Below, piece after piece: positions 41,804 through 63,226 of a stretch of DNA of 64,000 bases; within the stretch, counting starts at the first letter, position 1; the number at the start of each line of letters is the position of its first letter. The position numbers and the translations under genes are program-made. The DNA is taken from NCBI GenBank assembly GCA_000517005.1, contig KI912090.1, forward strand, positions 9,273 to 73,272. Direction: 5' to 3'. Below the pieces are notes generated by a model, which worked only from the letters and a program-made list of their open reading frames with translations, made no database searches and was not told where the DNA came from. Origin of the DNA: Microvirga lupini. Its GTDB lineage: Bacteria > Pseudomonadota > Alphaproteobacteria > Rhizobiales > Beijerinckiaceae.

Positions 41804-41825
41804 CGGAAGATAAAATCAAGTTACG

Positions 41826-41873
41826 TTATTTCGTACAATAACATTCTATTTACCGCTGTGACATTAGGCCTAA
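41826..41873. promoter_or_regulatory. AT-rich bcsN-bcsA spacer with two dyads
   Basis: GTTATT-TCGTAC-AATAAC (41825-41842) and the palindrome TTAGGCCTAA (41864-41873) lie in an AT-rich spacer, followed by TATATTAAT near 41888. They may mark an internal promoter for bcsA. Confidence 0.3.
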
Positions 41874-41964
41874 GCAACGCTGTCGATATATTAATAGACC
41901 CGTTTTTAGTCTTGAATTAAGCGTGCGATCTCCCACGCAAACCTTCGAGCCGAGAATCCAGACG

Positions 41965-44160: not shown

Positions 44161-44169
44161 AGGTATATC

Positions 44170-46728: not shown

Positions 46729-47822
46729 CGATCCGAATGCCTCGGCCTCTTCAGCTCCTGCCCTGGCTCTTTGCCGCCTTCTTCCTTCTCGTGGCGTCGA
46801 TGGCATTCTCTCAGAGCCTCTCCGTCCAGCCTTTGAACCTAGTAGGCACCATTTCTCCGGCTGATTGGGAGGCTTATCGCTCCCGATTCGTGGAGGACAA
46901 CGGGCGCGTGGTTGATACGGCCAACGGCAATATCAGCCACAGCGAGGGGCAGGGATACGGTTTGCTGCTAGCCCTGGCTGCGGGCGACAGACGCTCCTTC
47001 GAGCAGATCTGGAACTTCACCTTTACCGAACTTCTCATCCGGGACGATGGCCTGGCCGCTTGGAAATGGGATCCCAGCAGCAAGCCGCGGGTCACCGACC
47101 GCAACAATGCAAGCGATGGCGATCTTCTCATCGCCTATGCGCTGGCGAAGGCGGGCGCAGTCTGGCAGGAACCCCGCTACAGGACAGCCGCGCAGAAGCT
47201 CGCCAAAGCCATCGGCAAGAACACGTTCAGCCGCAGCGGACGATCTATGATTCTCCTGCCCGGCGCCCAGGGCTTCGGTGCCGGCGATCGCCCCGATGGT
47301 CCGGTCATCAATCTCTCCTACTGGGTCTTCGAAACCTTTCCGGTGCTGGCGGCCCTCGCGCCCGAGTATGAATGGAGCCACGTCTGGCGGGACGGCGTGA
47401 TGCTGCTGCAGCAGGCGACCTCGGGCCGCGTCAGGCTTCCTGCCGACTGGATCTCGCTTCAGAATGGGCTCCAGCCTCAACCGGCGGATGGCTTTCCTCC
47501 CGAGTTCGGTTACAACTCGTTAAGGATACCGCTTTACCTGTTGAGAGCAGGGATGACTGACATGGAGTGGCTGAGGGCTCTCAAGCAGCGCTGGTCTGCG
47601 GAGAACGAAGGAGTTACCGTGGTCAATGTGGTGACCGGACAGGTCCGGGAGCGACTAACCGATCAGGGCTACGCCATTCTGCCCGCAGCTCTCGCCTGTG
47701 CGCTTGACGGAACACCTGTTCCAGAAGCGCTGAAGACCTTCGAGCCGAGCCTCTATTACCCGTCGACCCTGTATCTTTTGGCGAAATCCCTGCTCGGTGA
47801 AAAATATCCGCAATGCGTCTAG
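46725..47822 (+). CDS. bcsZ: Periplasmic endoglucanase (GH8)
   Basis: A 365-residue family-8 glycosidase that trims misfolded or tangled glucan during cellulose export. The signal peptide ends near AFSQS. The proton-donor Glu lies in ISHSEGQGYGLLLALAAGD, and a further active-site Asp in NNASDGDLLIAYALAKAG. YWVFETFPVLAALAP and FGYNSLRIPLYLLRAG are also GH8 patterns. The ATG at 46725 overlaps the bcsB stop codon; the longer frame from 46665 is inside bcsB. The 3' end overlaps bcsK by 10 bp. Confidence 0.95.
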   Translation: MTIRMPRPLQLLPWLFAAFFLLVASMAFSQSLSVQPLNLVGTISPADWEAYRSRFVEDNGRVVDTANGNISHSEGQGYGLLLALAAGDRRSFEQIWNFTFTELLIRDDGLAAWKWDPSSKPRVTDRNNASDGDLLIAYALAKAGAVWQEPRYRTAAQKLAKAIGKNTFSRSGRSMILLPGAQGFGAGDRPDGPVINLSYWVFETFPVLAALAPEYEWSHVWRDGVMLLQQATSGRVRLPADWISLQNGLQPQPADGFPPEFGYNSLRIPLYLLRAGMTDMEWLRALKQRWSAENEGVTVVNVVTGQVRERLTDQGYAILPAALACALDGTPVPEALKTFEPSLYYPSTLYLLAKSLLGEKYPQCV

Positions 47823-49930
47823 TCGGCAGTGCCATAACGATTGCGGTTGCAATCCTGGGCTTCGCGGCTATCGCGCAGCAGACGGGCTCCGGCAGCGGCC
47901 AGCCGCCTGCCGAATCGCCGCCGACGACGCCTCCGGCCAACGGATCACAGCCTCAGGTCGATGAATCCGCTCTGCGCTACTTCGCATCCCAGGGCGATAC
48001 CCGCCGGGTGAATGCGGAAATCGCACGGCTGCGCGCGCTCTATCCCAATTGGACTCCCCCCAGCGACCTGTCGCAGCTCTCGGCAGGGGCCGGCGCTGCG
48101 GCGCCCGATCCACTCATCGAGCGCCTCTGGAACCTCTATCGCGAAGACCGAATCGCCGAGGTCCGCGCCGCCATCGCCGAACGTCAGACCTCCGACCCGA
48201 ACTGGAAGGCCCCCGAAGAGCTGATCGCGGCTCTCGATACGGTCGAGGCGCGCCGCCGCCTGACCAATGCGTCCGACACAGGCCAATGGCGCACGGTGCT
48301 GCAGGTGGCGACGGAAACACCGAGCCTCCTGACCTGCATGAACGTGGACGTGATGTGGCGGGTGGCGGAAGCCTTCGCCCGGACAGACCAGCCGAACCGG
48401 ACGCGGGATGTCTATACCTATCTCCTGCAAAACTGCGCCAACCCGGGCGAGCGCCTGGCCACCCTGCAGAAGGCCCTGACCTTGCTGCCCGAGCAGCAGG
48501 TGACCGCCCTGCTGCAGTTCGAGCGCAAGACCGGCGAGACGCCGGACGATTTCAGCTCCATCCGGGACGAACTGGCCCGCCGCCGGGTCGAGCGAGCCTC
48601 CCTCGACAGCAAGACGACTGCATCGGCCGAGGATCTCGCCGTGGTCGAGCGGCTGATCCAGAACACGAATGAAGTCGGCCCCGTGCTGATCCTCGGATGG
48701 TACAATTACCACCACGGCAATCCGGCGCGGGCGCTCGAATTGTTCAAGACGGCCCTTGACCGCAACGGCGGAGCGAAGGCGGCGGAAGGCTACGCCATGT
48801 CGCTGCGCGCGCTCGAGCGGCTCTCGGATGCGGAGGCCTTCGCCTATGAATGGCGCGAGCGCGCGCCCGAGAACATGAAGATCTATCTCGACGTGGCGAC
48901 GGCGCTCCTCAGCCAGGATCCGCCGCCGCGCCTCGAACCGCAGGTCCTTGCGCGGATCGTCCCGGTCGTCACGGCACAGCGCTTCTCCGACGCGGCCCAG
49001 GCCCTGGGCTGGTACTCCTACAACACGGAGCAGATTCGCACGGCGCGCGACTGGTTCCGCACGGCCCTGACCTGGAAAGCGGACGACGAACCCTCCGCCT
49101 ATGGATTGGCCCTGTCGACCCAGCGCCTGAACGATCGCGCCGGCTTCAACGCCGTGGTCGCTCAATGGCGAAGCCGCTCGCAGCGCATCGCCGACCTGGC
49201 CGATGGGATCAATCCGGCCTCCAGGCGGCAGCCTGCCGCCACACGGCCTGTTGTCGCGCAGGTCCCCACGGCGCAGCCTCTCGAGAGCACTCCTCTGCCG
49301 GTTCAACCCCGCCAGGTCACCGTCGAACGGGTCGAGACCGAGCAGACTTTCTCCCGGACCGAAGACAATGTCCGCCGCAGGCAGACCCAGGCCCGGTCCG
49401 CCCTCGGGCGCAATTGCGCCATGACGCGCAATCCGACTGGCCTATCCGGCGACGCTGCCCTCACCCGCGGCTGGTGCCTCATGGAGATCAACCGTCCCAT
49501 GGAGGCCGTGGCCGCCTTCGATCAGGCTATCGCCTCCGGCAGCAGCCGCACTCGCGAGGAGGCTGCCTACGGCAAGTCCCTTGCCTATCTGCGCAAGAAC
49601 CTGACGTCCGAGGCGGCCATTGCTGCCGCCGAGGCGCCGCAGACCCGTGAGCGCCGGGTGGAGCTCGGGGCCTCGATCCTGACCCAGCGTGCGCTGGCGG
49701 CCTATCGCGACGGGCGCTATGTGGAAACCCTCCTCGCCCTGAGCGAGCGAGCCCGGCTCGTCCCGGAACAGAACGATCTTCTGCTCATCCGCGGCTGGTC
49801 CTATCTCAAGCTCGGTCGCTACGACGATGCGGAGAAGATTTTCCGTGCCGTTCAGCAGACGGGATATTCAGAGGAAGCCGCTGCCGGATTGAACGCCATT
49901 GCCGAAGTCACTGGCCAGATGCGCTACTAG
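47813..49930 (+). CDS. bcsK: TPR-rich cellulose synthesis protein (BcsK type)
   Basis: A 705-residue secreted TPR protein. A signal peptide (AITIAVAILGFAAIAQ) and a Pro/Ser-rich linker precede degenerate tetratricopeptide repeats through the rest of the chain (e.g. VLILGWYNYHHGNPARALEL; LLLIRGWSYLKLGRYDDAEK at the end). It resembles the periplasmic TPR part of BcsC but lacks the C-terminal β-barrel that makes BcsC an outer-membrane pore. This matches the BcsK described for BcsC-less operons of the Agrobacterium kind. It probably organises the export path in the periplasm; the pore is unknown. A palindromic repeat follows immediately. Confidence 0.85.
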   Translation: MRLVGSAITIAVAILGFAAIAQQTGSGSGQPPAESPPTTPPANGSQPQVDESALRYFASQGDTRRVNAEIARLRALYPNWTPPSDLSQLSAGAGAAAPDPLIERLWNLYREDRIAEVRAAIAERQTSDPNWKAPEELIAALDTVEARRRLTNASDTGQWRTVLQVATETPSLLTCMNVDVMWRVAEAFARTDQPNRTRDVYTYLLQNCANPGERLATLQKALTLLPEQQVTALLQFERKTGETPDDFSSIRDELARRRVERASLDSKTTASAEDLAVVERLIQNTNEVGPVLILGWYNYHHGNPARALELFKTALDRNGGAKAAEGYAMSLRALERLSDAEAFAYEWRERAPENMKIYLDVATALLSQDPPPRLEPQVLARIVPVVTAQRFSDAAQALGWYSYNTEQIRTARDWFRTALTWKADDEPSAYGLALSTQRLNDRAGFNAVVAQWRSRSQRIADLADGINPASRRQPAATRPVVAQVPTAQPLESTPLPVQPRQVTVERVETEQTFSRTEDNVRRRQTQARSALGRNCAMTRNPTGLSGDAALTRGWCLMEINRPMEAVAAFDQAIASGSSRTREEAAYGKSLAYLRKNLTSEAAIAAAEAPQTRERRVELGASILTQRALAAYRDGRYVETLLALSERARLVPEQNDLLLIRGWSYLKLGRYDDAEKIFRAVQQTGYSEEAAAGLNAIAEVTGQMRY

Positions 49931-49940
49931 TTGCTGGCCT

Positions 49941-50096
49941 CTAGCGCATCGTGCGGACCCGAAGGGCCACGTCAGTGAAAAGTGGACCCGGTTTTCGTTG
50001 ACGCGGACCTCCGGTTCCGCTCCGAACGATGCGCCAGTCAAGAGAAGGAGCATCGGACCCAAAAGTGCAAATCCACTTTTGGGTCCGATGCTCTAG
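49941..50096. repeat. GCATCG-family palindromic repeat, full copy
   Basis: A 156-bp element bounded by CTAG at both ends. The left part starts CTAGCGCATCGTGCGGACCC. The right part is a perfect 20-bp hairpin (50048-50067 and 50074-50093, loop CAAATC) whose arm reads GAGCATCGGACCCAAAAGTG. It separates the cellulose and chemosensory operons and could terminate transcripts in both directions. Related copies are at 12297 and 15004. Confidence 0.75.
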
Positions 50097-50179: not shown

Positions 50180-50686
50180 ATGACCAGCTTGCAGATCATC
50201 GTGTTCGACGTGTGCGGCACCGCCTGTGCCTTGCACCGGACCGCTGTGCGCGAGTTTCTGCCGCTGCCTCACCTGTGGCGCCCCCCGGCCCTGCCCCGTC
50301 CGGTGGCGGGCTTCTTCAATCTGGGCGGCCATGCGGTTCCGGTCCTTCGGCTCGATGTGCTGTTCGGCCTCCAGCGGGCTGAGAAGGACGCCGAGGAGGA
50401 TCTCTATCAGCATCTGATCCTCATTGATCGGTTCAATGCATCGGGAACGTCTGCCCTCCTCGTCGATCGGGTTCTCGATGTTGCGAGCGTGGATCCATCC
50501 CGACTTTCATCCGTCAGAGAAGAGGGCACCTTGAACGGCTGCGTCGAGGCGGAGGTCACGTGGGACAACCGGCTCGTCCACCTGCTTTCGGTCGAGCGCA
50601 TCCTCCTCGCCGAGGAGCAGCAGGCTCTGGCGGAACTCGGACGCCAGGCCCAGAACCGGCTCAGCGAATGGGCGGTCCAGGCCTGA
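50180..50686 (+). CDS. cheW: CheW-type adaptor (WspB position)
   Basis: A 168-residue CheW scaffold that links a chemoreceptor to the CheA kinase. The β-barrel patterns are TSLQIIVFDVCGTACALHRT, VAGFFNLGGHAVPVLRLDVL and LYQHLILIDRFNASGTSALL. It is first in the Wsp-like operon. No strong ribosome site marks the start; ATG 50180 begins at the domain, while ATG 50129 adds 17 residues and a GTG at 49982 would start inside the repeat. Its stop overlaps the CheR start (TGATG). Confidence 0.88.
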   Translation: MTSLQIIVFDVCGTACALHRTAVREFLPLPHLWRPPALPRPVAGFFNLGGHAVPVLRLDVLFGLQRAEKDAEEDLYQHLILIDRFNASGTSALLVDRVLDVASVDPSRLSSVREEGTLNGCVEAEVTWDNRLVHLLSVERILLAEEQQALAELGRQAQNRLSEWAVQA

Positions 50687-52131
50687 TGGCCGCACGCGCT
50701 TCCGCCGCCCCGCTGATCGATGCCGGTTTTCCCGAACTGAAAAGCCGCATCATCGAGCGCACGGGACATTTCTACTATCAGGACAAGGACGACCTGCTCT
50801 GGGAGCGCGTACGCAAGCGCCTGCGTGCGACGGGACTTCCCGATTCGATTCAGTATCTGAATCTCCTGAACGATGCGATTTCGGGTCCTGTCGAATGGGG
50901 CAAGCTGGAAACCGAAATCACCATCGGCGAGACCTTCTTCTTCCGCTACGCGGAGCAGTTTGCAGCCCTGCGCGATACGATCCTGCCCGAGCTCATCGAG
51001 AGAAAGAGCGCCACGCGGCGGCTGCGGATCTGGAGCGCAGGATGTTCAACCGGAGCGGAACCCTATTCTCTCGCGATCCTCGTCAACGAGATTCTCGGCG
51101 AGAGTCTTGAAACATGGCGTGTCAGCATCGTCGGCACGGACATCAATGACAGCTTCCTCAACCTTGCCAGGCAGGCGCGGTTCGGGAAGTGGGCGCTTCG
51201 GTCCATGCCCGCTGGCGAAAGAGAACGCTACTTCCTGAGTGCGGGAAAGGACCAATGGCAGGTGCGGCCGCAATTCCGCTCCCTGGTCCGCTTCGAGAAG
51301 CACAATCTCCTGAGTCTTCTCGATGGAACCTCGCCGCTTGAGTTCACCGATTTCGATCTGATCCTCTGCCGAAACGTCCTGATCTACTTTCATCCGGACA
51401 CCGTGATCCGGATCGTCGAGGCCCTGCGCGACCGCCTCGCGGAGAGAGGCTGGATGCTGCTGGGCCATGCGGAGCCCAATCCTGCCTTTTCCGCCATGAT
51501 GCAGACCCTGAATCTGCCGGGGACGGTAGCCTATCGATCCGGCTCAAAGGAGGAAACCTCTGCAATCCCGTCCTTCGAGCAGCTCAAACTGCCTCTGAGG
51601 GATCCTGCACCGCTTCTGCCCGCTCCGAAGCCGGTAGAACGAGCAAAGCGGCAAGTCCCCCCACGACCGGCAACGATTTCTCCCAAGGCCCCTCTCTCTC
51701 CCGCTGCCCCTCAGGCTCCGGATGCCTTGCTGGACGAGGTCAAAGCCCAAGCCAATTCCGGCGATTTCGCCGCGGCCGATGCTCTCTGCCGGAAGGCCCT
51801 TGCCGTTCAGCCCCTGAACGCCAGCCTTCACTTCTACCATGGCCTCATCCTGCAGGCGCTCAGGCGGCCCGATGAAGCTGAGAACAGCTTCCTTAAAAGC
51901 ATCTATCTCGATAAAAGCTTTGCCATGGCTCATTACCACCTCGGACTGCTGCTGCTCGCAGAAAGGCGATCCGGTCCTGGCCGGCGCGCTCTGACCAATG
52001 CGGCCCGCATTGCGGCAGCGATGCCTGACGACCGCCTGCTCGACGAGGCGGACGGTCTCACCGCCCTGGAACTGCGCAATCTGGTCCGCATCCACCTTGA
52101 AGCGGCAATGCCGTCCAAGCGCCGGAGATGA
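50686..52131 (+). CDS. cheR: CheR methyltransferase with TPR domain (WspC type)
   Basis: A 481-residue glutamate methyltransferase that modifies the chemoreceptor of this array. The N-terminal helical domain (FPELKSRIIERTGHFYYQ) and the SAM-binding motif SAGCSTGAEPYSLAILVNE are typical, with LILCRNVLIYFHPDTV near residue 220. After a Pro-rich linker (about 300-345) come TPRs (residues about 355-440; LHFYHGLILQALRRPDEAE). CheR plus TPR is the WspC architecture rather than that of flagellar CheR. The start at 50686 shares a base with the cheW stop codon. Confidence 0.93.
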   Translation: MAARASAAPLIDAGFPELKSRIIERTGHFYYQDKDDLLWERVRKRLRATGLPDSIQYLNLLNDAISGPVEWGKLETEITIGETFFFRYAEQFAALRDTILPELIERKSATRRLRIWSAGCSTGAEPYSLAILVNEILGESLETWRVSIVGTDINDSFLNLARQARFGKWALRSMPAGERERYFLSAGKDQWQVRPQFRSLVRFEKHNLLSLLDGTSPLEFTDFDLILCRNVLIYFHPDTVIRIVEALRDRLAERGWMLLGHAEPNPAFSAMMQTLNLPGTVAYRSGSKEETSAIPSFEQLKLPLRDPAPLLPAPKPVERAKRQVPPRPATISPKAPLSPAAPQAPDALLDEVKAQANSGDFAAADALCRKALAVQPLNASLHFYHGLILQALRRPDEAENSFLKSIYLDKSFAMAHYHLGLLLLAERRSGPGRRALTNAARIAAAMPDDRLLDEADGLTALELRNLVRIHLEAAMPSKRRR

Positions 52132-52733
52132 CCATGGCGAAATCGGTGCGTCGCAAATTGAGGCAGATGGAACAGATCCGCATTCGCTCCGCCGAGGAAC
52201 GCGTGCAGCAGATCCTCGACGAGCGCACGGAACGCCTTGCAGCTCGAAAGAATGCGGCAGCCGTTCCGGCACAAGCATTGCCCCGCGCCCTGGTCTGCGG
52301 CGCGGGCCGCGAGCGCTTCGGTCTTCCGATCGATGTCGTAGCGGAGGTTCTGCCGTCTCAAAATTGCATGCCCGTTCCCGATGGGCCGCCGGCCCTGATC
52401 GGCCTGTTCGGGCGGGGCGGGCGGCTGGTCAGCGTGATCGATCTTGCCCTCGCGCTAGGACTTGAACCTTCCTCCTCGGATGACGAAAGCCACCATTTGG
52501 TCCTGCTGCGGCGGGATCAGCCGCAGGTGGCGCTCAGAGTCGAGCGCGCTTATGCGGTCGCGGACATCCTGCCTCTGACAGGCGAGGAGGCCGCAGGTTT
52601 CCGCAACGACGCCGTCATCGGCTATGGCAAGGTTCAATCCGGCTCTGCCGACCACGACGAAACGCTCTCTCTTCTCGATACCGAACGCCTCCTGCGCCCC
52701 TTCCTGCCAACATCCTCTGTTCCTGGAGTCTGA
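52128..52733 (+). CDS. cheW: CheW-type adaptor (WspD position)
   Basis: A 201-residue CheW protein with an extra N-terminal helical extension of about 45 residues ([20 protein letters not shown]), as in WspD. The domain includes [20 protein letters not shown] and [20 protein letters not shown]. The ATG at 52128 overlaps the cheR stop codon. Two CheW proteins in one operon is the usual Wsp layout. Confidence 0.9.
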
Positions 52734-52734
52734 C

Positions 52735-54411
52735 GTGACGATCTCGATCGCCAACCGCATTCTTCTCGGCTTCGCCGTCATCGTCGCGCTGATGGTCGGC
52801 CTTGGCGTCTATGCCATCAACCAGCTCGACGACGTCCGACAATCGACGGAGACGATCGTGACGCGCGATCTGGCCCTGATGCGTCAGATCGAAGATCTTG
52901 GCGACCTGCAGAACAACATGCGGGGCGTGCGGGAGGATATGCTCTCCCGCTTCTTCCTGCGTTCGCTCGGTCAGCAGCAGGCTGCCAGCGACGATCTGAT
53001 CCGCTCCTGGGAACAGCAGGCCGCCGCGACCGAAGCCTCCATGGCGCAAGCTATTGCAACAGTGAATGATTTTGCCGCGCAGTCGGTCACGTCGCAGAGG
53101 GCGGAAGCCTGGCGACGCATCACCGAGATTCTCAATCGTGCCAACGGAGACCTGCGTCAGATCCGTTCCTCGACTGAACGGCAATTCGCGGCCCAGCAGA
53201 GCAATGACCTTGCAGCAGTGGCCGCTACCCAGAATGCCCTGAATGCCAGCCGCGAATCCTGGAACAGGAACCTGGTGCAAGCCCGTAGTGTCCTGGGTGA
53301 GGCGATCACGATCGGACAGAGACGGATCGGCGAGGTTTACGAGCAGAGCCGGATGTCGATCATCCTGGCGGTGGCTGGTGCTGCGCTTCTGAGCATCCTC
53401 ATCACTTATGCCCTGCGCTCCTCCATCACGGGACCGCTCGGCACCTTCATGAACTTCGTCGAAAGAGTCGGACGCGGCGAGCTCGGAGGTCAGATGGCCG
53501 TCACCGGCAAGGACGAGATCGGGCATCTCGGTGCGACCCTCAACACCATGGTCGAAGGCCTGCGCCAGCTCGCGCAACAGAGCCGCGAGGCGACCGAGAA
53601 CCTGAATGCCGCAGCGGCGGAAATCCGTGCTTCGACCCAGGAACAGGCTGCCTCCGTCGAGGAACAATTGGCCGCCGTTCAGGAGACCGCCGCGACCGTG
53701 GATGAGATCACCCATTCAGGCACGCAGATCGGAAAACGTGCACAGGAAGTCATCGCATCAGCACAGGCAGCGGCACAGACCAGCATGTCGGGTCTGCAGG
53801 CTGTCGAGGAAACCGCACGCGCCATGGATGCCATCCGCGAGCAGGCGGAAGCGGTGGCAGAAAACATCGTCGCCTTGAGCGAGAAGACGCAGGCCGTCGG
53901 CGAGATCATCACATCGGTCAACGATATTTCCGAGCGTACACATCTTCTCGCTCTCAACGCCGCCATCGAGGCCGCCGCAGCCGGCGAGAATGGCCGCAGC
54001 TTCGCGGTGGTCGCCTCCGAGATGAAGACGCTTGCCGATCAGGCGAAGGATGCGACGCTTCAGGTGCGCTCGATCTTGGGCGACATCCAGCGCGGCATCA
54101 ATTCATCCGTGATGCTCACGGAAGAGGCCGTGAAGCGCGTCGCCGCCGGCAAGGAGCGGACGGACATCACCCAGCACACCATCACCGGCATCTCCGGCCA
54201 GATCCAGGAAAGCGTCCAGACCTTCCAGCAGATCATCGCCTCGACCAACCAGCAGCAGCTCGGCATCGAGCAGGTGATGGGTGCTCTCCAGAACATCCGC
54301 CAGGCAAGCCAGCAGACGGCCGCCGGCACCCGCCAGCTCGATACGGCGGCGGCCAATTTGTCCAGCCTTGCGCAGCAGTTGCTCGGCCTTGCCGAGCGCT
54401 ATCGCCTGTAA
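52735..54411 (+). CDS. Methyl-accepting chemoreceptor (WspA position)
   Basis: A 558-residue chemoreceptor. Helix 1 (about 8-28) and helix 2 (about 203-225; [20 protein letters not shown]) bracket a periplasmic four-helix-bundle sensor of roughly 175 residues. A HAMP domain follows, then the kinase-control hairpin with its tip near [20 protein letters not shown] and [20 protein letters not shown], which resembles WspA. The start is GTG at 52735, two bases past the cheW stop, with CTGGAGTC upstream. The frame continues open upstream, but that part overlaps cheW. Confidence 0.92.
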
Positions 54412-54438
54412 GCGATCGATGGTAGGGACGCGCGTTTC

Positions 54439-56658
54439 GTGACGGATATTCGTAAGCAGCTGCTGGCAGCCTTCGAGGCGGAGCATCGGGAGCATCTTCA
54501 GGCGATCCGATCCGCGCTCGACCATGCGGGCGGAGGCGAGATCGACCTGACGGATGTCTTTCGCCGGGCGCACAGTCTCAAGGGAGCCGCCCGCGCCGTC
54601 GACCTACCGGCTGTGGAGGAGGTTGCGCACCAGCTCGAAGCGCTCTTCTCCCAGGTGCTCGACGGGCAACAAACCCTGGACGCTTCCACCATCGCGACGG
54701 TGCGCCAAAATCTCGACCTCATCGAGGATCTTGTTGCGAATGTCCTGAAGCCGCCGGAGCTGCAGACGCCTCCGGCACCGATGTCAAAGTCCGTACCGCT
54801 CGAACCGGAACCAACGGCTCCAAAGACGGATGCGCCTGCACCCGCCGATACCGGCACAGGATCCTATCTCCGCGTTTCCGCAGAGCAGATGGAGGAACTG
54901 TCCGATTCCATGCATCAGCTCCTGGCGGAGCTACAGGCCGATGAGGGAATCGACGACACGCTGCGGCAGATCGAGCTGGACGTTCGGGGCTTGAGAAGAA
55001 GCTGGGATCAGCTTCATGCGCAGATCAACGCCTTGAACTCCTCAACGCAGCAAAGCCCCAGCGGGACCAATTCCCGCAACAGCCCATCCTTTGCCCCGCG
55101 CCTGCGCGATTTCGATCAGGGCCTGAAAGCCCTGTTTCGCAGGCTGTCCGCCCTGTCCCGGGGCAGAAGGCAATCCAGCTGGTCCATCGAGCAGGCGGCG
55201 CGTCAGGTCCGCGACAACATCGACCGCGTGTCCCTTGTCTCAGCGGAGACGGTTTTCGGCGGCTTCGGCCATATGGTGCGTGAGATCGCCCGCAAGGCGG
55301 GACGCGACGTGCATGTGCGCAGCATCGGTCTCGATATTCAGGTCGACCGGCAGGTGCTTCAGGCCCTCAAGGATCCCGTGATGCATCTGCTGCGAAACGC
55401 GGTGAGCCACGGGACCGAGCCGCCGGAGGAACGCGCCACCAAGGGCAAGCCGGAACGTGCCGAAGTGACCCTCGAACTCGCCTCCCGCGGCGGGCGTCTG
55501 GTCATCAGCATTCGCGACGACGGACGCGGCCCCAATCTCGCGCGCATCGAGCAGGTCGCCGTCGAACGTGGGCTGCTGCAGCCGCGGGATCCAGGCCATC
55601 CGCCACCGATGATGGACCAGCTGCTGTCCCTCGTCTTCACGCCCGGCTTCTCGACGGCGGGCGAGGTCGACCGGTTGTCCGGCCGGGGCATGGGCCTTTC
55701 CGTCGTCGCGGAGGCCGTCCGCAAGCTGCAGGGTTCGGTTCTGCTACGGCCACGTTTCCCCTACGGGACAGAGGTTCTACTGAATGTGCCCTTCACGGCG
55801 GCGCGCCAGCCGCTGCTCCTGCTGGAAGCCGAGGAGCGGATGTTCGGCCTGCCCTCCCATGCGGTGGAGCGCCTCCTGCGGCTGCCTGCCAAGACGCTGG
55901 AAACTGTGGAAGGCCGTCCCACAGCACGGATCGAGATCGGGGGACAGGACGTTATCGTTCCAGTCGTCGCCCTCGCAGCCCTGACAGGATCCCCGAATGC
56001 CCCCCTTCCCACCGAGGCAGGACACGTGAAGGCCGTGCTTGTCCGTCACGGCTCCCGGACCTGCGCACTCGCTGTCAATGCATTCCATGATGTCCGCACA
56101 ATGCTGGTCAGCGATATCCAGGCCATCGGTCTGGGCGAGTTGGTCTCGGGCACCATCCTCCTGGAAAACGAGCTGCCGGCCCTCGTGCTGAGCCCGGACA
56201 AGCTGGTCGAGCACTGGGTCAGGAACGAGGGCAAGCTCGCGGCCGGGGGGCTGGGGCTCACCCGATGGGCTCCCGACGAGGAACGCCGGGCAAGGACCAT
56301 CCTCGTGGTCGATGATTCCATCACCACCCGGACCCTCGAGAAGAGTATCCTGGAAGCACAAGGCTACGAGATCCTCCTCAGCGTCGACGGCATCGACGCC
56401 CTTCACGTGCTGCGCTCAGGCGAGGCCATCGTCGATCTCGTCATAGCCGATGTGGAAATGCCGCGCATGGACGGCTTCGGCCTGCTGCAGGCGATCAAGA
56501 ACGATCCGCGGCTGTCCACCCTACCGGTGATCCTCATGACCTCGCGTGCCGACCCGGAGGATGTGCGCAAGGGTCTCGATCTGGGCGCGAGCGCCTATAT
56601 TACAAAGCAGAAGTTCGATCAGCGCGAGCTCCTGGCGACGATCGGACAGGTGTTATGA
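54439..56658 (+). CDS. cheA: CheA-REC hybrid histidine kinase (WspE type)
   Basis: A 739-residue hybrid kinase. The HPt domain carries the phosphorylated His in FRRAHSLKGAARAVDLP. The ATPase domain shows HLLRNAVSHGTEPPEERATK, DDGRGPNLARI and SGRGMGLSVVAEAVRKLQG. A CheW-like coupling domain follows, and a C-terminal receiver (about 620-739) has ILVVDDSITTRTLEKSILE, with the acceptor Asp in VIADVEMPRMDG and the conserved Lys in YITKQKF. A fused receiver is characteristic of WspE. The start is GTG. Its targets would be CheB and a response regulator, which is not encoded as a separate gene here. Confidence 0.94.
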   Translation: MTDIRKQLLAAFEAEHREHLQAIRSALDHAGGGEIDLTDVFRRAHSLKGAARAVDLPAVEEVAHQLEALFSQVLDGQQTLDASTIATVRQNLDLIEDLVANVLKPPELQTPPAPMSKSVPLEPEPTAPKTDAPAPADTGTGSYLRVSAEQMEELSDSMHQLLAELQADEGIDDTLRQIELDVRGLRRSWDQLHAQINALNSSTQQSPSGTNSRNSPSFAPRLRDFDQGLKALFRRLSALSRGRRQSSWSIEQAARQVRDNIDRVSLVSAETVFGGFGHMVREIARKAGRDVHVRSIGLDIQVDRQVLQALKDPVMHLLRNAVSHGTEPPEERATKGKPERAEVTLELASRGGRLVISIRDDGRGPNLARIEQVAVERGLLQPRDPGHPPPMMDQLLSLVFTPGFSTAGEVDRLSGRGMGLSVVAEAVRKLQGSVLLRPRFPYGTEVLLNVPFTAARQPLLLLEAEERMFGLPSHAVERLLRLPAKTLETVEGRPTARIEIGGQDVIVPVVALAALTGSPNAPLPTEAGHVKAVLVRHGSRTCALAVNAFHDVRTMLVSDIQAIGLGELVSGTILLENELPALVLSPDKLVEHWVRNEGKLAAGGLGLTRWAPDEERRARTILVVDDSITTRTLEKSILEAQGYEILLSVDGIDALHVLRSGEAIVDLVIADVEMPRMDGFGLLQAIKNDPRLSTLPVILMTSRADPEDVRKGLDLGASAYITKQKFDQRELLATIGQVL

Positions 56659-56668
56659 GTTTCCGGCG

Positions 56669-57745
56669 ATGAGTATGGCGTCTCAGTCACGGGTCCGTGT
56701 GATGGTCGTCGAGGATTCCCTCGTCGTCCGTCAGCTGCTCGTCCATATCATCGCCAGTGATCCGCGCCTCGTGGTTGCGGCCGCCGTCAGCTCGGCGGAG
56801 GAGGCGCTCCAGGAAATCGGCCGGGTGCAGCCGGACGTCGTGTCCATGGATATCCGCCTTCCGGGAATGGATGGGTTGGAGGCGACGCGCCGGATCATGT
56901 CGGAGCACCCGACGCCTATCGTCGTCATCGCCGACAGCATCGAGGATTCCTCGCTCAAGATCTCCATGAATGCGCTCCGGGCCGGGGCGCTCACGGTGGT
57001 GGAAAAGCCGGTCGGCCTCTCGAGCGCCAATTATGCAGGGATTGCCAGCACCATCTGCACCCAGCTCTATATCATGAGCCAGGTTCCGGTGGTCCGGCAG
57101 CGCTCTTTCGCGCCCTGGCGCGAGAAGAGCGCAACGGCGGCTCCTAAGCCCAATCCGGATTGGAGCGCGACGCGCCCGAGCATCATGGGAATTGCCGCCT
57201 CCACCGGCGGACCGCCGGCCCTGGCCAAAGTCCTGGGCGCCCTCCCGGAGGACTTTCCGCTGCCGATCCTCCTCGTCCAGCACATGGGGGCGCCGTTCAT
57301 GGAGGGGTTCGCCTCCTGGCTGAACGGGCTGATACCTCTGAAGGTCCGCTTGGTGCAGGATCAGGAGATCCCGGCTGCCGGTCATGTCTATGTCGCTCCC
57401 GGCGACCGGCACCTGCTCCTTTCCCCTGCGGGCACCTTGAAGGTGAGCAGCGAGCCTCCCTTGGGCAACCAACGGCCTTCCGCCACCATGCTCTTCCAGT
57501 CGATGGCGCGATCGGCAGGCCGAAGGGGGCTCGGTGTCATCCTCACCGGCATGGGCGAGGACGGGGCACAGGGACTCGTCGAGTTGCGCCAGGCAGGGGG
57601 CTATGGACTGGCCGAGGATGAAAGCACCGCCGTCGTCTATGGCATGCCCGCCGCGGCATCCCGCATGGGCGGAGTCAATATCAGCCTGCCCCTCGACTTG
57701 ATCGCATCCCGGATCCTGAGGCTGGTGCGGGGAGAAGGCGAATGA
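56669..57745 (+). CDS. cheB: CheB methylesterase (WspF type)
   Basis: A 358-residue protein-glutamate methylesterase. The receiver domain (RVRVMVVEDSLVVRQLL; acceptor Asp in VVSMDIRLPGMDG) is joined to the esterase domain with the catalytic Ser in GIAASTGGPPALAKVL, His in LVQHMGAPFMEGFASW and Asp in TGMGEDGAQGLVELRQ. It removes methyl groups from the chemoreceptor when phosphorylated. The ATG at 56669 lies 11 bp after the cheA stop codon; the longer frame upstream is inside cheA. The stop overlaps the next gene as ATGA. Confidence 0.94.
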   Translation: MSMASQSRVRVMVVEDSLVVRQLLVHIIASDPRLVVAAAVSSAEEALQEIGRVQPDVVSMDIRLPGMDGLEATRRIMSEHPTPIVVIADSIEDSSLKISMNALRAGALTVVEKPVGLSSANYAGIASTICTQLYIMSQVPVVRQRSFAPWREKSATAAPKPNPDWSATRPSIMGIAASTGGPPALAKVLGALPEDFPLPILLVQHMGAPFMEGFASWLNGLIPLKVRLVQDQEIPAAGHVYVAPGDRHLLLSPAGTLKVSSEPPLGNQRPSATMLFQSMARSAGRRGLGVILTGMGEDGAQGLVELRQAGGYGLAEDESTAVVYGMPAAASRMGGVNISLPLDLIASRILRLVRGEGE

Positions 57746-59466
57746 GTGCCGGTTCCGTTGCGCAGACCGCCGAGATTCTCCTGGTCGAGGATTCGGAGAC
57801 CCAGGCGCTGCAGTTGCGCCACATGCTGGAGACGAACGGATTCAGCGTCTCCTGGCGCGCCACGGCGGAAGCTGCCCTCGACAGCCTGAACGAAAAGCTG
57901 CCCGATCTCGTCATCGCCGATTACCACCTGCCCGGCATGAACGGGGACGAGCTGACCCGACAGATGCGCCTCAACGTGCGGACGCGGGCGCTTCCCGTGA
58001 TCATGCTCACGGAAGCGCGGGAACGCGCCGTCGAGCGCCAAGGCCTGGAAAGCGGCGCGGATGCCTATATCTCCAAATCCGCCGAGCAGGAATTGATCGT
58101 CCTACGGATCAAGGCGCTGCTACGCCGGCGCTCGTCTCCCAGCGGCGATCCCAAAGAAGCGCGGCAATCCCCGAGCTTCGGCACCTTCCGCCGGGCCTGC
58201 CTCCTGATCGTGGACGACAGCCCGACACGCCGCGCCTATCTCCAGAACATGCTGGCCCATGAAGGCTATGCGGTGACGTCCGCCTCGGAATCGGCCGAGG
58301 CTCTCCGGCTGGTCCGCTCGCCGGACGCGACCTGGGACTGCATTCTGGTCAACCTGCTCAGCCCGGGCTTCGACGGCATCGAACTGTGCCGCCAGCTGAA
58401 CCTCTACCGCGGCCTCGCACCTCTGCCGGGCACGGATGCCCCAAGCTTTGCCATCGTCGGTCTCGGCAATGAAGAGGGTGGCGATATGCTTGCGCGTGCC
58501 TTTGCCGCGGGCGTGGACGATATCGTTCCCTCCACGGTCGAAGCCGATGTGATGCGCGTGCGCATTCGCGCGCTCGTCCGGCGCAAGCTCATGCAGGACG
58601 AGAACTGGCGCATCGAGGCGGAGCTGCGCGAGCGGGAGCTGGCCCTGGCCAAGGCTCGGGCGGAGGCCGCCTCCGCGGAGGCTCTTGCCAATGCCAACCG
58701 CGAGCTGGAAGAAGCCAACCATCTCCTCAAAGGCACACAGGCGCAGCTCGTCCAGGCCGCCAAGATGGCGTCCCTCGGTGAATTGGTGGCGGGCATCGCC
58801 CATGAGATCAACAATCCCCTTGCCTTTATCCAGGCACACCAAGGGACCGTGGAGAAATTGCTTACCGAGATCGCCGCGAAGCTCCCGCCGGAGGCAGGCC
58901 TTGAAAGGCAGGTGCAGAAATCGCGCGATCGCGTCGCTGCGATGAAGCTCGGCCTCGCCCGGATCCAGGAACTGGTCCTCAATCTGAGACGATTTTCCCG
59001 CCTGGACGAGGGAGACTTCCAGACCGTCAATGTGCCGGAATCGATCGAGACCGTTCTGGCCCTCCTGGGGCATAAGCTCGGCACGCGAATCGATGTGCGC
59101 CGCCGCTACAACGCCGTGCCCGATCTCTATTGCTCGCCAGCCCTTTTGAACCAGGTTGTCATGAACATCGTCGGCAATGCCGCCGATGCGATCAAAGGCA
59201 CCGGCGGCATAGACATTGAAACTGAGAGCAACGAGACAACCTATACCATCAAGATCAGCGATACAGGTCCGGGTATTCCAGGGGAATTGCGGGAGCGCAT
59301 CTTCGAACCCTTCTTCACCACCAAACCCGTCGGGTCTGGAACTGGACTCGGCCTAGCCATCGCTTATAGCGTCGTTCAGGCCCATAAAGGATCGATCGCG
59401 GTGGATTCGGGTCCCCCTGGGGGCGCCAGCTTCACCATCACGATCCCGAGGCATATTGTTTCATGA
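57742..59466 (+). CDS. Hybrid histidine kinase: two receivers plus kinase
   Basis: A 574-residue soluble sensor kinase. Receiver 1 (about 10-130) keeps its acceptor Asp ([13 protein letters not shown]). Receiver 2 (about 150-275; [19 protein letters not shown]) reads [13 protein letters not shown], so the acceptor Asp is replaced by Asn. A coiled coil leads to the HisKA box ([20 protein letters not shown]) and ATPase motifs ([50 protein letters not shown]). No membrane segment or PAS domain is seen. Receiver 1 is well placed to take phosphate from CheA and control this kinase. Translationally coupled to cheB and to the next kinase by 4-bp overlaps. Confidence 0.92.
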
Positions 59467-61379
59467 CCTTGTCGAGCGAGATGACTTCAACCAATGGTAC
59501 GATCCTGGTCGTCGATGACGAACCGGACATCCTGATCGCGCTCGAGGATCTGTTCGAGAACGACTACCGGGTCCTGACGGCCTCGTCCCCGGTCCAGGCG
59601 CTCGACATCATCCGGCAGGAGCCGGACATCGCCATCATCATCTCGGACCAGCGCATGCCCGAGATGCAGGGCGACGAGTTCCTGGCCAAGGCCCGCCATG
59701 AAACCGATGCCGATGCGATCCTTCTCACCGGCTACGCGGATCTCAAGGCGGTGATCGGAGCGGTCAACAAGGGCCGCATCATGGCCTACGTTCCCAAGCC
59801 CTGGGATCCGGCCGCCCTCTCCAACATGGTGGCCGCAGCTTATCAGCGGCGCATGCTGGCCCGGAAGCTCGACACGGAACGCGCGCTTCTGCGCGGGCTG
59901 ATGGAAAGCACGGGCGATCTGATCTCGTTCAAGGATCTGGACGGCCGTTTCGTCCGCCTGAACGCCAGCAAGGCGCGAAGCCTCGGTTGCAGCTCAGAAG
60001 ACTGCCTGGGCCGCAAGGAAAGGGATTTCATCTCGCCGGAACGGGCCAGGATGATCGAGGAGGCGGAGCGCCGGGCCATCGTGGCGCGGGCCCCCAATGA
60101 AGTGATCGAGGAACGGACCTCGCCCGATGGCGCGACCCAGTGGTTCCTCATCAACCACATCCCGATCATCGACGAGGCGGGAGCCGTCACGAACCTTGCC
60201 ACCATCGAGCGCGACATCACCGAGCGCAAGCTGATGGAGATGCGCCTGCGGCAGGCGGACAAGATGCAGGCCCTCGGGACCCTTGCCGGCGGCGTCGCTC
60301 ACGACTTCAACAACCTGCTGATGGCCGTCCTCGGCAGTCTCGACCTCGCCTCGCGCCGGGCGCCCGACGATCCCCGCCTGACACGGCTTTTACAGAACGC
60401 CACCTATGCGGCCGAACGCGGCGCCTCCCTGACCCAGCGGCTCCTGAGCTTCAGCCGCCAGCGCGACCTGCGGCTGCAGGCCGTGGACGTGAATCAGGTC
60501 ATCACCAGCATGAACGACCTGCTGACACGCACGCTTGGCGGCGTCATCCGGATCGAGCGGCATCTTCATGACGGCTTGTGGGCCGCCATGGTCGACCCGG
60601 ATCAGCTCGAACTCGCAATCCTCAACCTGTGCATCAATGCCCGTGATGCCATGGCCGAAAACGGGATTCTGACCCTCTCGACCCGCAATGAGACGGTCAG
60701 AGAAGGGCGAATTACCGATCTGAGCGGTGGCGAGTATGTGGTGATCTCCGTCACGGATACGGGCAGCGGCATTCCACCCGAGGTCCTAGCCAGGGTCCTT
60801 GAGCCCTTCTTCACCACCAAGGAGGTGGGCAAGGGAACGGGCCTCGGATTGCCTATGGTTTATGGTCTGGCCCAGCAATCCGGCGGTACCGTCACGATCC
60901 AGAGCACGGTCGGATCAGGGACGACGGTGGAACTCTATCTGTCCCGCGCCGCCACGGAGCGGGAGGATGGACCGCAGGAGGAGCAGGCGATTGCACCGAA
61001 CGCGCCCAAAGTGCGGATTCTGCTCGTCGACGACGATGCGGAAGTGAGAACTGTGACGGCTGCCTATCTCACCGAGATGGGACATCGGGTCGTGGAGGCT
61101 GCAGACGGATCCTCAGCCCTCGATATCCTGAAGACCGACGACCAACTCGATCTCCTCATTGCCGATTTTGCCATGCCCGGCATGACCGGAACCGATTTGG
61201 CCGACAAGGCCAGAGAGATCCGGTCCGATCTCGGCATTCTGCTCGTGACCGGATATGCCGATCCGAAGCGGCTTCCGGACGGTTACCTAATGCTCCACAA
61301 GCCCTTCAGCCGCACCGACCTGGCCGCGAAGGTCACCCAGGCGGCCCGTCGGGAGCAGGAGCGAAGCTCATCCGACTGA
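59463..61379 (+). CDS. Hybrid histidine kinase: REC-PAS-kinase-REC
   Basis: A 638-residue soluble hybrid kinase. The N-terminal receiver (ILVVDDEPDILIALEDL; acceptor in IIISDQRMPEMQGDEFL) is of the type often joined to RpfG-like output. A PAS domain (about 145-260; GDLISFKDLDGRFVRLNASK) follows, then HisKA (LAGGVAHDFNNLLMAVLGSL), the ATPase (LNLCINARDAMAENG, DTGSGIPPEVLARVLEPFF) and a second receiver at the C-terminus (RILLVDDDAEVRTVTAA; acceptor in LLIADFAMPGMTG). It closes the Wsp-like operon. The phosphate may leave through an unlinked HPt or regulator. Confidence 0.93.
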   Translation: MTLSSEMTSTNGTILVVDDEPDILIALEDLFENDYRVLTASSPVQALDIIRQEPDIAIIISDQRMPEMQGDEFLAKARHETDADAILLTGYADLKAVIGAVNKGRIMAYVPKPWDPAALSNMVAAAYQRRMLARKLDTERALLRGLMESTGDLISFKDLDGRFVRLNASKARSLGCSSEDCLGRKERDFISPERARMIEEAERRAIVARAPNEVIEERTSPDGATQWFLINHIPIIDEAGAVTNLATIERDITERKLMEMRLRQADKMQALGTLAGGVAHDFNNLLMAVLGSLDLASRRAPDDPRLTRLLQNATYAAERGASLTQRLLSFSRQRDLRLQAVDVNQVITSMNDLLTRTLGGVIRIERHLHDGLWAAMVDPDQLELAILNLCINARDAMAENGILTLSTRNETVREGRITDLSGGEYVVISVTDTGSGIPPEVLARVLEPFFTTKEVGKGTGLGLPMVYGLAQQSGGTVTIQSTVGSGTTVELYLSRAATEREDGPQEEQAIAPNAPKVRILLVDDDAEVRTVTAAYLTEMGHRVVEAADGSSALDILKTDDQLDLLIADFAMPGMTGTDLADKAREIRSDLGILLVTGYADPKRLPDGYLMLHKPFSRTDLAAKVTQAARREQERSSSD

Positions 61380-61621: not shown

Positions 61622-63226
61622 ATGAAAAAATCAGCCCTTTTCGCAGCCATCTGCGTTCCGGCCTTCCTGGCCGCCGCTCCGCTGGCCGCCAAAACTCTCG
61701 TCTATTGCTCCGAGGGCAGCCCGGAGAACTTCTATCCCGGCGTCAACACCACCGGCACGTCCTTCGACGTGACGGAGCACATTTACGACAACATCGTCGA
61801 TTTCGAGCGTGGCGGCACCACGGTCGTTCCCGGCCTCGCCGAGAAGTGGGACATTTCGGCTGACGGCACCGTCTACACCTTCCACATCCGCAAGGGCGTG
61901 AAGTTCCACAACACCAACAAGAATTTCAAGCCGACCCGCGATCTGAACGCCGACGACATCATCTTCATGATCGAGCGTCAGTGGAAGGAAGATCACCCGT
62001 ACTTCAAGGTGACGAGCCCGAACCATTCCTACTTCACCGACATGGGCATGCCCAAGCTGCTGAAGTCCGTGGAGAAGGTTGACGATTACACCGTCCGCAT
62101 CACCCTCAACCAGCCTGAGGCTCCCTTCCTTGCCAACCTCGCCATGCAATGGGCCGGCGTTCAGTCGAAGGAATATGCCGATGCCATGCTGAAGGCCGGC
62201 ACGCCGGAGAAGATCGACCAAGATCCGGTCGGCTCAGGCCCGTTCTATCTCGTGAATTATCAGAAGGACGCTATCGTCCGCTTCAAGGCCTTCCCGCAGT
62301 ACTGGGGCGGCAAGGCCAAGATCGATGACCTCGTGTTCTCGATCACCCCGGATGCCTCCGTGCGCTGGGCCAAGCTCCAGAAGGGCGAATGCCACGTCAT
62401 GCCGTATCCGAACCCGGCTGACCTCGAGGCCATGAAGAAGGACCCGAACGTCACGGTCATGGAGCAGCCTGGCCTGAACATCGGCTATCTCGCCTACCAG
62501 ACCACGAAGAAGCCCTTCGACGACGTGCGCGTCCGCAAGGCCTTCAACATGGCCATGAACAAGAAGGCGATCGTCGACGCCGTGTTCCTCGGCTCGGGCG
62601 TGCCTGCCACGAACCCGATCCCGCCCTCCATGTGGTCGTACAACAAGTCCGTCAAGGACGACGAGTACAACCCTGAAGCGGCCAAGAAGCTCCTGGCCGA
62701 GGCCGGCTACCCGAATGGCCTCGAGACCGACCTCTGGGCCATGCCGGTTCAGCGCCCCTACAACCCGAATGCACGCCGCATCGCCGAGCTCATGCAGGCC
62801 GACCTCGCCAAAATCGGCGTGAAGGCTGAGATCAAGAGCTTCGAGTGGGGCGAATACCGCAAGCGGGCCCAGGCCGGCGAGCACCAGATGGCTCAGCTCG
62901 GCTGGACGGGCGACAACGGCGATCCGGACAACTTCCTTCACACCCTGCTCGGCTGCGCCTCGGCGCAGAGTGCTTCGGGCTCGAACATCGCCAAGTGGTG
63001 CTACAAGCCCTTCGACGATCTCGTGACGAAGGCGAAGGTTGTGACCAACCAAGCCGAGCGTACGAAGCTCTACGAGCAGGCCCAGGTGCTCTTCAAGGAA
63101 CAGGCTCCGTGGTTCACGGTGGCTCACGCCGTGCAGCTGAAGCCGGTCCGCAAGGAAGTCGTGGATTTCAAGCTCTCGCCGTTCGGCCGCCACTCCTTCT
63201 ACGGCGTCGACATCAAGGGCAAGTAA
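61622..63226 (+). CDS. Dipeptide-type ABC transporter substrate-binding protein (DppA-like)
   Basis: A 534-residue periplasmic receptor of the family-5 peptide/nickel group. The signal peptide ends near APLAAK-T. TLVYCSEGSPENFYPGVNTT at the mature start, GTVYTFHIRKGVKFHNT and MPVQRPYNPNARRIAELM are the DppA patterns; NGDPDNFLHTLLGCASAQS near 440 is close to the dipeptide-binding group. Dipeptides or heme are plausible ligands. GAGGACTAGGT lies before the ATG. A strong hairpin with a T tract separates it from the permease gene. Confidence 0.93.
   Translation: MKKSALFAAICVPAFLAAAPLAAKTLVYCSEGSPENFYPGVNTTGTSFDVTEHIYDNIVDFERGGTTVVPGLAEKWDISADGTVYTFHIRKGVKFHNTNKNFKPTRDLNADDIIFMIERQWKEDHPYFKVTSPNHSYFTDMGMPKLLKSVEKVDDYTVRITLNQPEAPFLANLAMQWAGVQSKEYADAMLKAGTPEKIDQDPVGSGPFYLVNYQKDAIVRFKAFPQYWGGKAKIDDLVFSITPDASVRWAKLQKGECHVMPYPNPADLEAMKKDPNVTVMEQPGLNIGYLAYQTTKKPFDDVRVRKAFNMAMNKKAIVDAVFLGSGVPATNPIPPSMWSYNKSVKDDEYNPEAAKKLLAEAGYPNGLETDLWAMPVQRPYNPNARRIAELMQADLAKIGVKAEIKSFEWGEYRKRAQAGEHQMAQLGWTGDNGDPDNFLHTLLGCASAQSASGSNIAKWCYKPFDDLVTKAKVVTNQAERTKLYEQAQVLFKEQAPWFTVAHAVQLKPVRKEVVDFKLSPFGRHSFYGVDIKGK

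Follow-up and report, generated by a model that had tools for sequence, protein, structure and literature searches.

Gene content and active sites of the cassette

We examined a 64,000-nucleotide stretch of Microvirga lupini DNA (contig KI912090.1 of assembly GCA_000517005.1, here called the window; the genome comprises 9.63 Mb in 160 contigs) and within it a cassette of eight plus-strand genes at 50180-61379, in which a chemosensory array is followed by two histidine kinases, HK1 and HK2. Pfam searches gave the order CheW, CheR-TPR, CheW, methyl-accepting chemotaxis protein (MCP), CheA-REC, CheB, HK1 and HK2. The first coupling protein, CheW (50180..50686; Pfam CheW 2.6e-17), starts with the ATG at 50180 and is followed by a CheR methyltransferase with weak TPR matches at its C-terminus (50686..52131; CheR 1.1e-48) and by a second CheW with an N-terminal extension (52128..52733; CheW 1.5e-17). 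The MCP (52735..54411; MCPsignal 3.3e-31, HAMP 7.9e-9), for which a GTG start was chosen, has a 4HB-type match below the Pfam cut-off in its sensor region. CheA (54439..56658) is a hybrid of Hpt, HATPase, CheW and receiver (REC) domains, and CheB (56669..57745; CheB 1.4e-56) is a methylesterase with a receiver. With the chosen starts, the junctions along the array measure -1, -4, +1, +27, +10, -4 and -4 bp. The original prediction, made from the sequence alone, had named this gene order and tight spacing, and all eight genes lie where it had placed them, with the domains it had assigned.

Both kinases carry N-terminal receivers, and no membrane helix was seen in either by a crude hydropathy check, so that their earlier description as two soluble hybrid kinases stands with one refinement: HK1 ends without a C-terminal receiver, and HK2 has one. 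HK1 (57742..59466; 574 aa) reads REC1-REC2-long helix-HisKA-HATPase according to Pfam, an AlphaFold model and homology of residues 1-340 to the kinase CheS3 of R. centenum. HK2 (59463..61379; 638 aa) reads REC-PAS-HisKA-HATPase-REC in Pfam.

Active-site residues were counted over 93 distinct HK1, 93 distinct HK2 and 97 distinct CheA sequences; the window and a fused kinase from the Hyphomonadaceae (L135) are counted in each set of 93, and the L135 row aligns another receiver at the place of HK2 REC1. The P1 histidine of CheA, His45, was kept in 96 of 97 sequences, the remaining one having a gap, and Asp671 of its receiver in 97/97. In HK1 REC1, Glu16, Asp17, the acceptor Asp60 (57919..57921), Thr90 and Lys112 were invariant (93/93), as were the phospho-acceptor His354 (58801..58803; 93/93) and the ATP-site residues checked. 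HK2 showed equal constancy at Asp62, His280, Asp568 and Lys613 (each 93/93), with Lys112 present in 92/93. The second receiver of HK1 has Asn204 (58351..58353) at the acceptor place in the alignment and is a receiver without an acceptor; an aspartate stands there in 31/93 sequences. One row of that comparison (L092) had been cut in the wrong frame and was disregarded. Mean identity per HK1 domain, over 29 non-redundant sequences, was 69% for REC1, 65% for DHp, 62% for CA, 56% for the coil and 42% for REC2.

The AlphaFold model of HK1 (mb4e24dcdda3e; mean pLDDT 79.9, pTM 0.52) contains two receiver folds, and a helix spanning residues 268-380 continues the last helix of REC2 into the dimerisation domain, the relative placement of the domains being uncertain at this pTM. 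In the model this helix suggests how the receivers could steer the HK1 kinase. Among solved structures, HK1 REC1 was best matched by PhoB and PleD, HK2 REC1 by an HD-domain response regulator and HupR, and the HK2 kinase core by the CckA structure 5idj (E 6e-44).

Conservation of the array and its kinases

A synteny survey, the check suggested with the original prediction, found the two kinases co-conserved with the array, so that the prediction withstood its own refuting condition of kinases lost or kept independently of the array. Among 48 Microvirga genomes, searched at E <= 1e-60 for CheA and HK1 and E <= 1e-120 for HK2, each of the three proteins occurred in the same 35, and the other 13 had none (35/35 genomes with the array against 0/13 without it). 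For CheA and HK1 the Fisher p value was 5e-12, kinship of the genomes being uncorrected. Apart from the window, 34 array loci were fetched from the genus (L030-L041, L043-L064); 33 carried the complete cassette in unchanged order, while one started inside the MCP gene at a contig end.

The survey was widened to named relatives, taken as the best 80 of 532 confirmed CheA-profile loci; as the best-scoring loci they are close relatives by construction. Microvirga contributed 21 of them, many being genomes of the genus survey, and other genera 59; the closest CheA relatives among the 80 were all Microvirga. The cassette was found in Microvirga, Methylobacterium, Methylorubrum, Roseomonas, Pseudoroseomonas, Caulobacter, Phenylobacterium, Chthonobacter and Alsobacter. 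Both kinases followed CheB in 75/80 loci, of which 59 were complete eight-gene cassettes, 12 were cut at contig starts and three (L092, L100, L118) had no profile-detectable second CheW. The locus of Methylobacterium sp. Leaf118 (L136) reads CheA-CheB-HK1-HK2, and CheW, CheR and MCP were not detected in the ~10 kb upstream.

The five named loci without the pair after CheB were the fused kinase (L135), three that end at contig ends (L114, L117, L122) and a Crenalkalicoccus locus (L088), in which an Era-like GTPase gene follows CheB and the contig reads ~9 kb past CheB without kinases. The Crenalkalicoccus HK1-HK2 pair sits together on another contig (L198). Apparent rearrangements that placed CheR before the first CheW or HK1 before CheB were discounted, as sorting by stop-to-stop open reading frame (ORF) starts produces them and an alignment-sorted listing gave the usual order.

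A looser sample, 385 genomes drawn from the class, was searched as well (HK1 receiver module at E <= 1e-28, CheA at E <= 1e-70); the HK1 receiver module occurred in six, the M. lupini genome included, and in four of these it lay 1.1-1.2 kb from a CheA match. In another genome (G414, locus L164) relatives of HK1 and HK2 stand upstream, before CheW-CheR-CheW-MCP-CheA-CheB, and its CheA falls outside the clade described below; the kinase pair thus seems exchangeable between arrays. In an Azospirillaceae genome (G234) the module lies away from che genes. CheA was found in 9/385 genomes, and three CheA loci lacked the HK1 module: L167 (G156) has one REC-PAS-HK-REC kinase after CheB and no HK1, L168 has a receiver gene near the contig end as a candidate output, and L169 has the Wsp order.

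Relation to the Che3 system and proposed relay

The R. centenum Che3 system includes CheA3, a CheA-REC protein with H49 and D663, the kinase CheS3 and the receiver CheY3 (PMC3868531). CheS3 consists of REC1 with D54, REC2 with A191 at the acceptor place, a PAS domain and an HWE kinase with H453 (PMC3868531). In vitro, phosphorylated CheA3 D663A phosphorylates CheS3 REC1, and CheY3 is phosphorylated by phosphorylated CheS3 only (PMC3868531). The phenotypes of the CheS3 changes D54A and H453A are opposite to each other, with cheS3 epistatic to cheA3 (PMC3868531).

We read the R. centenum cluster from a genome (G517) found among 82 Azospirillaceae genomes and taken as R. centenum because CheA H49 and D663 and CheS3 D54, A191 and H453 match the published numbers. 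HK1 residues 12-340 aligned with CheS3 at 36% identity (E 7e-38), Asp60 falling on D54 and Asn204 on A191. The same REC-REC module precedes a PAS-HWE kinase in Indioceanicola, where it matches HK1 at 39% (E 2e-44). The two clusters share the order CheW-CheR-CheW-MCP-CheA-REC-CheB-REC-REC kinase, the CheA clade, and a REC1-REC2-linker segment whose live REC1 and dead REC2 acceptor places match. They differ in that HK1 has a HisKA core and no PAS domain, whereas CheS3 is a PAS-HWE kinase; HK1 is therefore a relative of CheS3, not a full-length orthologue. The M. lupini cassette also has an extra hybrid kinase, HK2, with a PAS domain and a C-terminal receiver, and lacks a CheY3-like single receiver.

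A CheA tree was built from 37 rows chosen from the loci at hand; it was midpoint-rooted, and the split is what counts. CheA of the window, R. centenum CheA3 and the CheAs of Indioceanicola and Azospirillum fell into a clade of 24 rows (100/100), the six CheAs of Wsp loci formed a separate clade (100/100), and a tree without R. centenum gave the same split. Judged by sequence, the cassette is a Che3-type system with exchangeable output.

The original prediction had placed the genes in the order of Wsp, which would make the cassette a Wsp system with a changed output, controlling cyclic di-GMP (c-di-GMP) and thereby cellulose. The shared CheR-TPR, two CheWs and CheA-REC without a P2 match speak for this, as does the PilZ-bearing cellulose synthase that adjoins the array, and in Burkholderia Wsp H-systems a REC-kinase (WspH) takes the place of WspR (PMC8552884). 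In the tree, however, CheA falls apart from the Wsp clade. The gene order disagrees as well: the gene for the MCP comes fourth, following the second CheW and preceding CheA, whereas in the six Wsp loci it stands ahead of the CheW genes. On these two grounds we reject Wsp membership. The prediction was right that no WspR-like regulator is encoded: a domain search found no GGDEF in the array, and of 26 matches genome-wide only one falls inside the window, in a minus-strand CHASE4-GGDEF-EAL protein (12433-14739) ~35 kb from the array. Cellulose genes and array also vary independently in the genus (see below), and we regard this reading as very improbable. An output of the WspR or WspH kind was likewise rejected, as the array has no GGDEF and HK1 is homologous to CheS3 along REC1-REC2; WspH matched HK1 weakly, in receiver and HATPase regions only.

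A second flagellar chemotaxis cluster would explain the full MCP-CheW-CheA-CheR-CheB set. Against it, no stand-alone CheY or single-receiver gene occurs within the cassette in the ORF list or by Pfam, a separate CheA/CheW locus lies elsewhere in the genome on contig C34, and in the tree CheA groups with R. centenum CheA3, a protein that controls encystment (PMC3868531). We give this explanation hardly any weight.

The reading we prefer, at a probability of about two in three, is a Che3-type chemosensory system with a non-flagellar output, in which CheA would signal to HK1 REC1, HK1 to HK2, and HK2 onward. The idea that a chemosensory CheA controls histidine kinases, which the original prediction had joined to Wsp, is the best reading because of the homology of HK1 to CheS3 and the strict co-conservation of array and kinases; its Wsp identity did not survive the CheA tree and the gene order. 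The transmembrane MCP, two CheWs, CheR and CheB would form an adapting array that sets CheA activity. CheA would autophosphorylate on His45 in P1, lose phosphate to Asp671 of its own receiver, a probable sink by homology with CheA3 D663, and phosphorylate Asp60 in HK1 REC1, again by homology. The acceptor-less REC2 may have a structural part, relaying to the long helix that leads to the dimerisation domain, so that the state of REC1 would set the kinase/phosphatase balance of HK1; by analogy with its homologue CheS3, phosphorylation would switch the kinase down. HK1 would then act on HK2 REC1, and HK2, a CckA-like PAS kinase, would pass phosphate to its own C-terminal receiver, from which it may reach the output through an Hpt protein and a regulator encoded elsewhere. 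Gene content, active-site residues, homology and co-conservation come from sequence, and the first transfer was shown in the homologous pair, from CheA3 (D663A) to CheS3 REC1; that transfer in M. lupini, the step from HK1 to HK2 and every step past HK2 are what we infer.

A step from HK1 to HK2 is supported by loci in which the two kinases keep together although the array lies on a different contig (L198) or is reordered (L164), and by the Hyphomonadaceae protein (L135:13149-15518). This one protein, encoded after CheB, joins the HK1 REC-REC module to an HK2-type PAS-HisKA-HATPase-REC, and thus the HK1 kinase and the first receiver of HK2 are missing together. The two kinases could instead form parallel branches, CheA phosphorylating their N-terminal receivers separately and the kinases not working in series. 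Intact N-terminal receivers in both kinases suit that arrangement, as does the receiver-first kinase of L167, which follows CheB with no HK1 between. The fusion argues otherwise, since it keeps the HK1 receivers and drops the first receiver of HK2, as expected if that receiver only talks to the HK1 kinase, and HK2 REC1 is of another receiver type than HK1 REC1. Parallel branches therefore strike us as rather unlikely.

Several observations weigh against the serial relay from CheA through HK1 to HK2. Transfer from wild-type phosphorylated CheA3 to CheS3 REC1 was undetected, and the D663A form alone worked (PMC3868531). HK1 has a HisKA core and CheS3 an HWE core, so that REC1 control may differ in sign and in detail; REC2, moreover, is not dead everywhere, since 27/93 HK1 sequences, all from Methylobacterium or Methylorubrum, keep both Asp and Lys. 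HK2 REC1 was considered as a relative of CheY3 and set aside: it gave weak matches only, to other receivers, in a comparison that used a small receiver upstream of the R. centenum cluster as the putative CheY3. The Hyphomonadaceae fusion is a single metagenome-assembled case, in which Pfam finds two receivers and profile search with alignment three. An HK2 relative in another genome (L165:5149-6882, G393) lacks the C-terminal receiver, so that the step through this receiver is not universal, and the single kinase of L167 is likewise compatible with CheA feeding it directly. No biochemical work on these proteins was found in the literature searched.

More tentatively, and at somewhat less than even odds, HK1 and HK2 may be a transferable module: a three-kinase serial relay that works with more than one CheA lineage (G414) and was collapsed to one protein in the Hyphomonadaceae. 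If so, CheR/CheB adaptation would act on a kinase cascade rather than on a motor. A conserved ninth gene was considered as the output and rejected, as the listed clusters of flanking ORFs, the 25 largest, ranked by non-Microvirga loci, include none that spans families; those seen are common to Methylobacterium and Methylorubrum only.

Cellulose genes and comparison with known systems

A cellulose operon, bcsN-A-B-Z with a gene for a TPR protein that we call bcsT (40835-49930), lies directly upstream of the array, as the original prediction had stated, and a DppA-like binding protein is encoded downstream (61622-63226). Apart from the window, bcsT was directly upstream in 29/33 readable genus loci and absent in four. 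The gap between bcsT and cheW is 250 bp in M. lupini and 96-203 bp in 18 named relatives. It contains a perfect 20-bp palindrome with a 6-base loop (50048-50093), which looks like a repeated palindromic element, as its core has exact copies at seven genome places; among the 18 named relatives a comparable but different inverted repeat occurs in L065 only. Co-transcription of bcs and array in Microvirga is possible.

The presence of the two systems was compared across the genus. A BcsA orthologue (>= 74% identity, fragments counted) was found in 32/35 genomes with the array and 10/13 without it (Fisher p 0.32). Two genomes that keep the array (G034, G053) had no BcsA match at E <= 1e-60, and a third (G045) had a match of 49% only. 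All nine readable array-less genomes, and one with the array on another contig (G052), have bcsT followed by a dppA-like gene within ~0.3-0.5 kb; the tenth array-less locus, L183, ends before that gene. As bcsT adjoins the dppA-like gene in array-less genomes, the cassette occupies one constant gap, where either all of it is found or none.

Outside Microvirga, five bcs proteins were searched in 69 array or array-like loci, with flanks mostly <= ~10 kb and several cut by contig ends, and no match was found in 68 of them. The remaining one, from Caulobacter segnis (L109:16969-21324), encodes a BcsA-BcsB fusion of 1451 aa with PilZ, whose gene starts 221 bp past the end of HK2 in the same orientation. 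It is 38% identical to BcsA of the window, is differently built and represents a second, independent neighbourhood, which reflects either chance or, in a few lineages, some link of the cassette to polysaccharide.

A Che3-type system locally recruited to control cellulose or exopolysaccharide, its output including the adjoining operon, would account for the short gap to bcsT and the C. segnis fusion and would recall the exopolysaccharide coat of R. centenum cysts (PMC3868531). The same adjacency of bcsT and the dppA-like gene without the array, the genomes with an array and no close BcsA, and the scarcity of bcs outside Microvirga speak against it. Given the empty site and the presence/absence survey, we do not regard a link dedicated to cellulose as established; such a role was not accepted and is kept as an alternative that we consider doubtful.

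That a CheA can govern a kinase through its receiver was already known from R. centenum Che3 (2013), and a REC-kinase instead of WspR from Burkholderia WspH. As far as our literature search reaches, the two-kinase version, the exchange of the kinase core, the spread of the cassette and the fused form are new; no description of a CheA array with these two kinases behind it was found in the full-text literature searched, most subscription papers lying outside it, which is no proof of absence. R. centenum Che3 is a biochemically studied case of CheA acting over a kinase, and the cassette extends it to a conserved unit of eight genes across several genera; the analysis also corrects a natural misreading as Wsp, which would direct experiments to c-di-GMP first.

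The Wsp R-system, which ends in WspR, shares CheR, two CheWs, CheA-REC and CheB with the cassette, but has the MCP first and REC-GGDEF last (L152, L155). In the Burkholderia H-system, as in M. lupini, the presumed target of a chemosensory CheA-REC is a REC-kinase instead of a diguanylate cyclase (PMC8552884); the H-system differs in having a single kinase, whose gene lies upstream of that for the MCP (L150, L151), and a CheA in a different clade. According to its authors, c-di-GMP was unchanged in Burkholderia wsp mutants (PMC8552884). Two alphaproteobacterial clusters, from a Novosphingobium plasmid (L155) and G099 (L169), are Wsp-like, with the MCP first and CheAs in the Wsp clade; after CheB, REC-GGDEF was confirmed in the former and a receiver gene found in the latter. 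Wsp has been called exclusive to beta- and gammaproteobacteria (PMC8552884), in contrast to these two loci.

HK2 resembles CckA in its PAS-HisKA-HATPase-REC layout and differs in its N-terminal receiver and in showing no membrane helix in the crude check; against the CckA family it scored 388 and 333 of 1000 bits, well short of the cut-offs. A c-di-GMP site has been described for CckA (PMC5189948), and a possible counterpart in HK2 was considered. Two further kinases were seen apart from che clusters: an HK1-related protein on a Niveispirillum plasmid (L029:12980-15871), with three receivers, HisKA, HATPase and Hpt and no adjoining che cluster, and a CheS3-like kinase beside a single receiver (L166), where 20 kb of sequence showed no che genes.

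Azospirillum plasmid and chromid loci (L145-L147) share the six-gene core and have an HK1-related REC-REC protein after CheB. There, however, it stands alone (L145:12359-13126) and is followed by a separate HisKA-HATPase-REC hybrid kinase, and the receiver roles look swapped, the first having Glu in place of the acceptor Asp and the second keeping its Asp. Across these systems the input core is constant and the output exchanged: a PAS-HWE kinase in R. centenum, a stand-alone double receiver with a kinase in Azospirillum, two hybrid kinases in the M. lupini cassette and one fused kinase in the Hyphomonadaceae.

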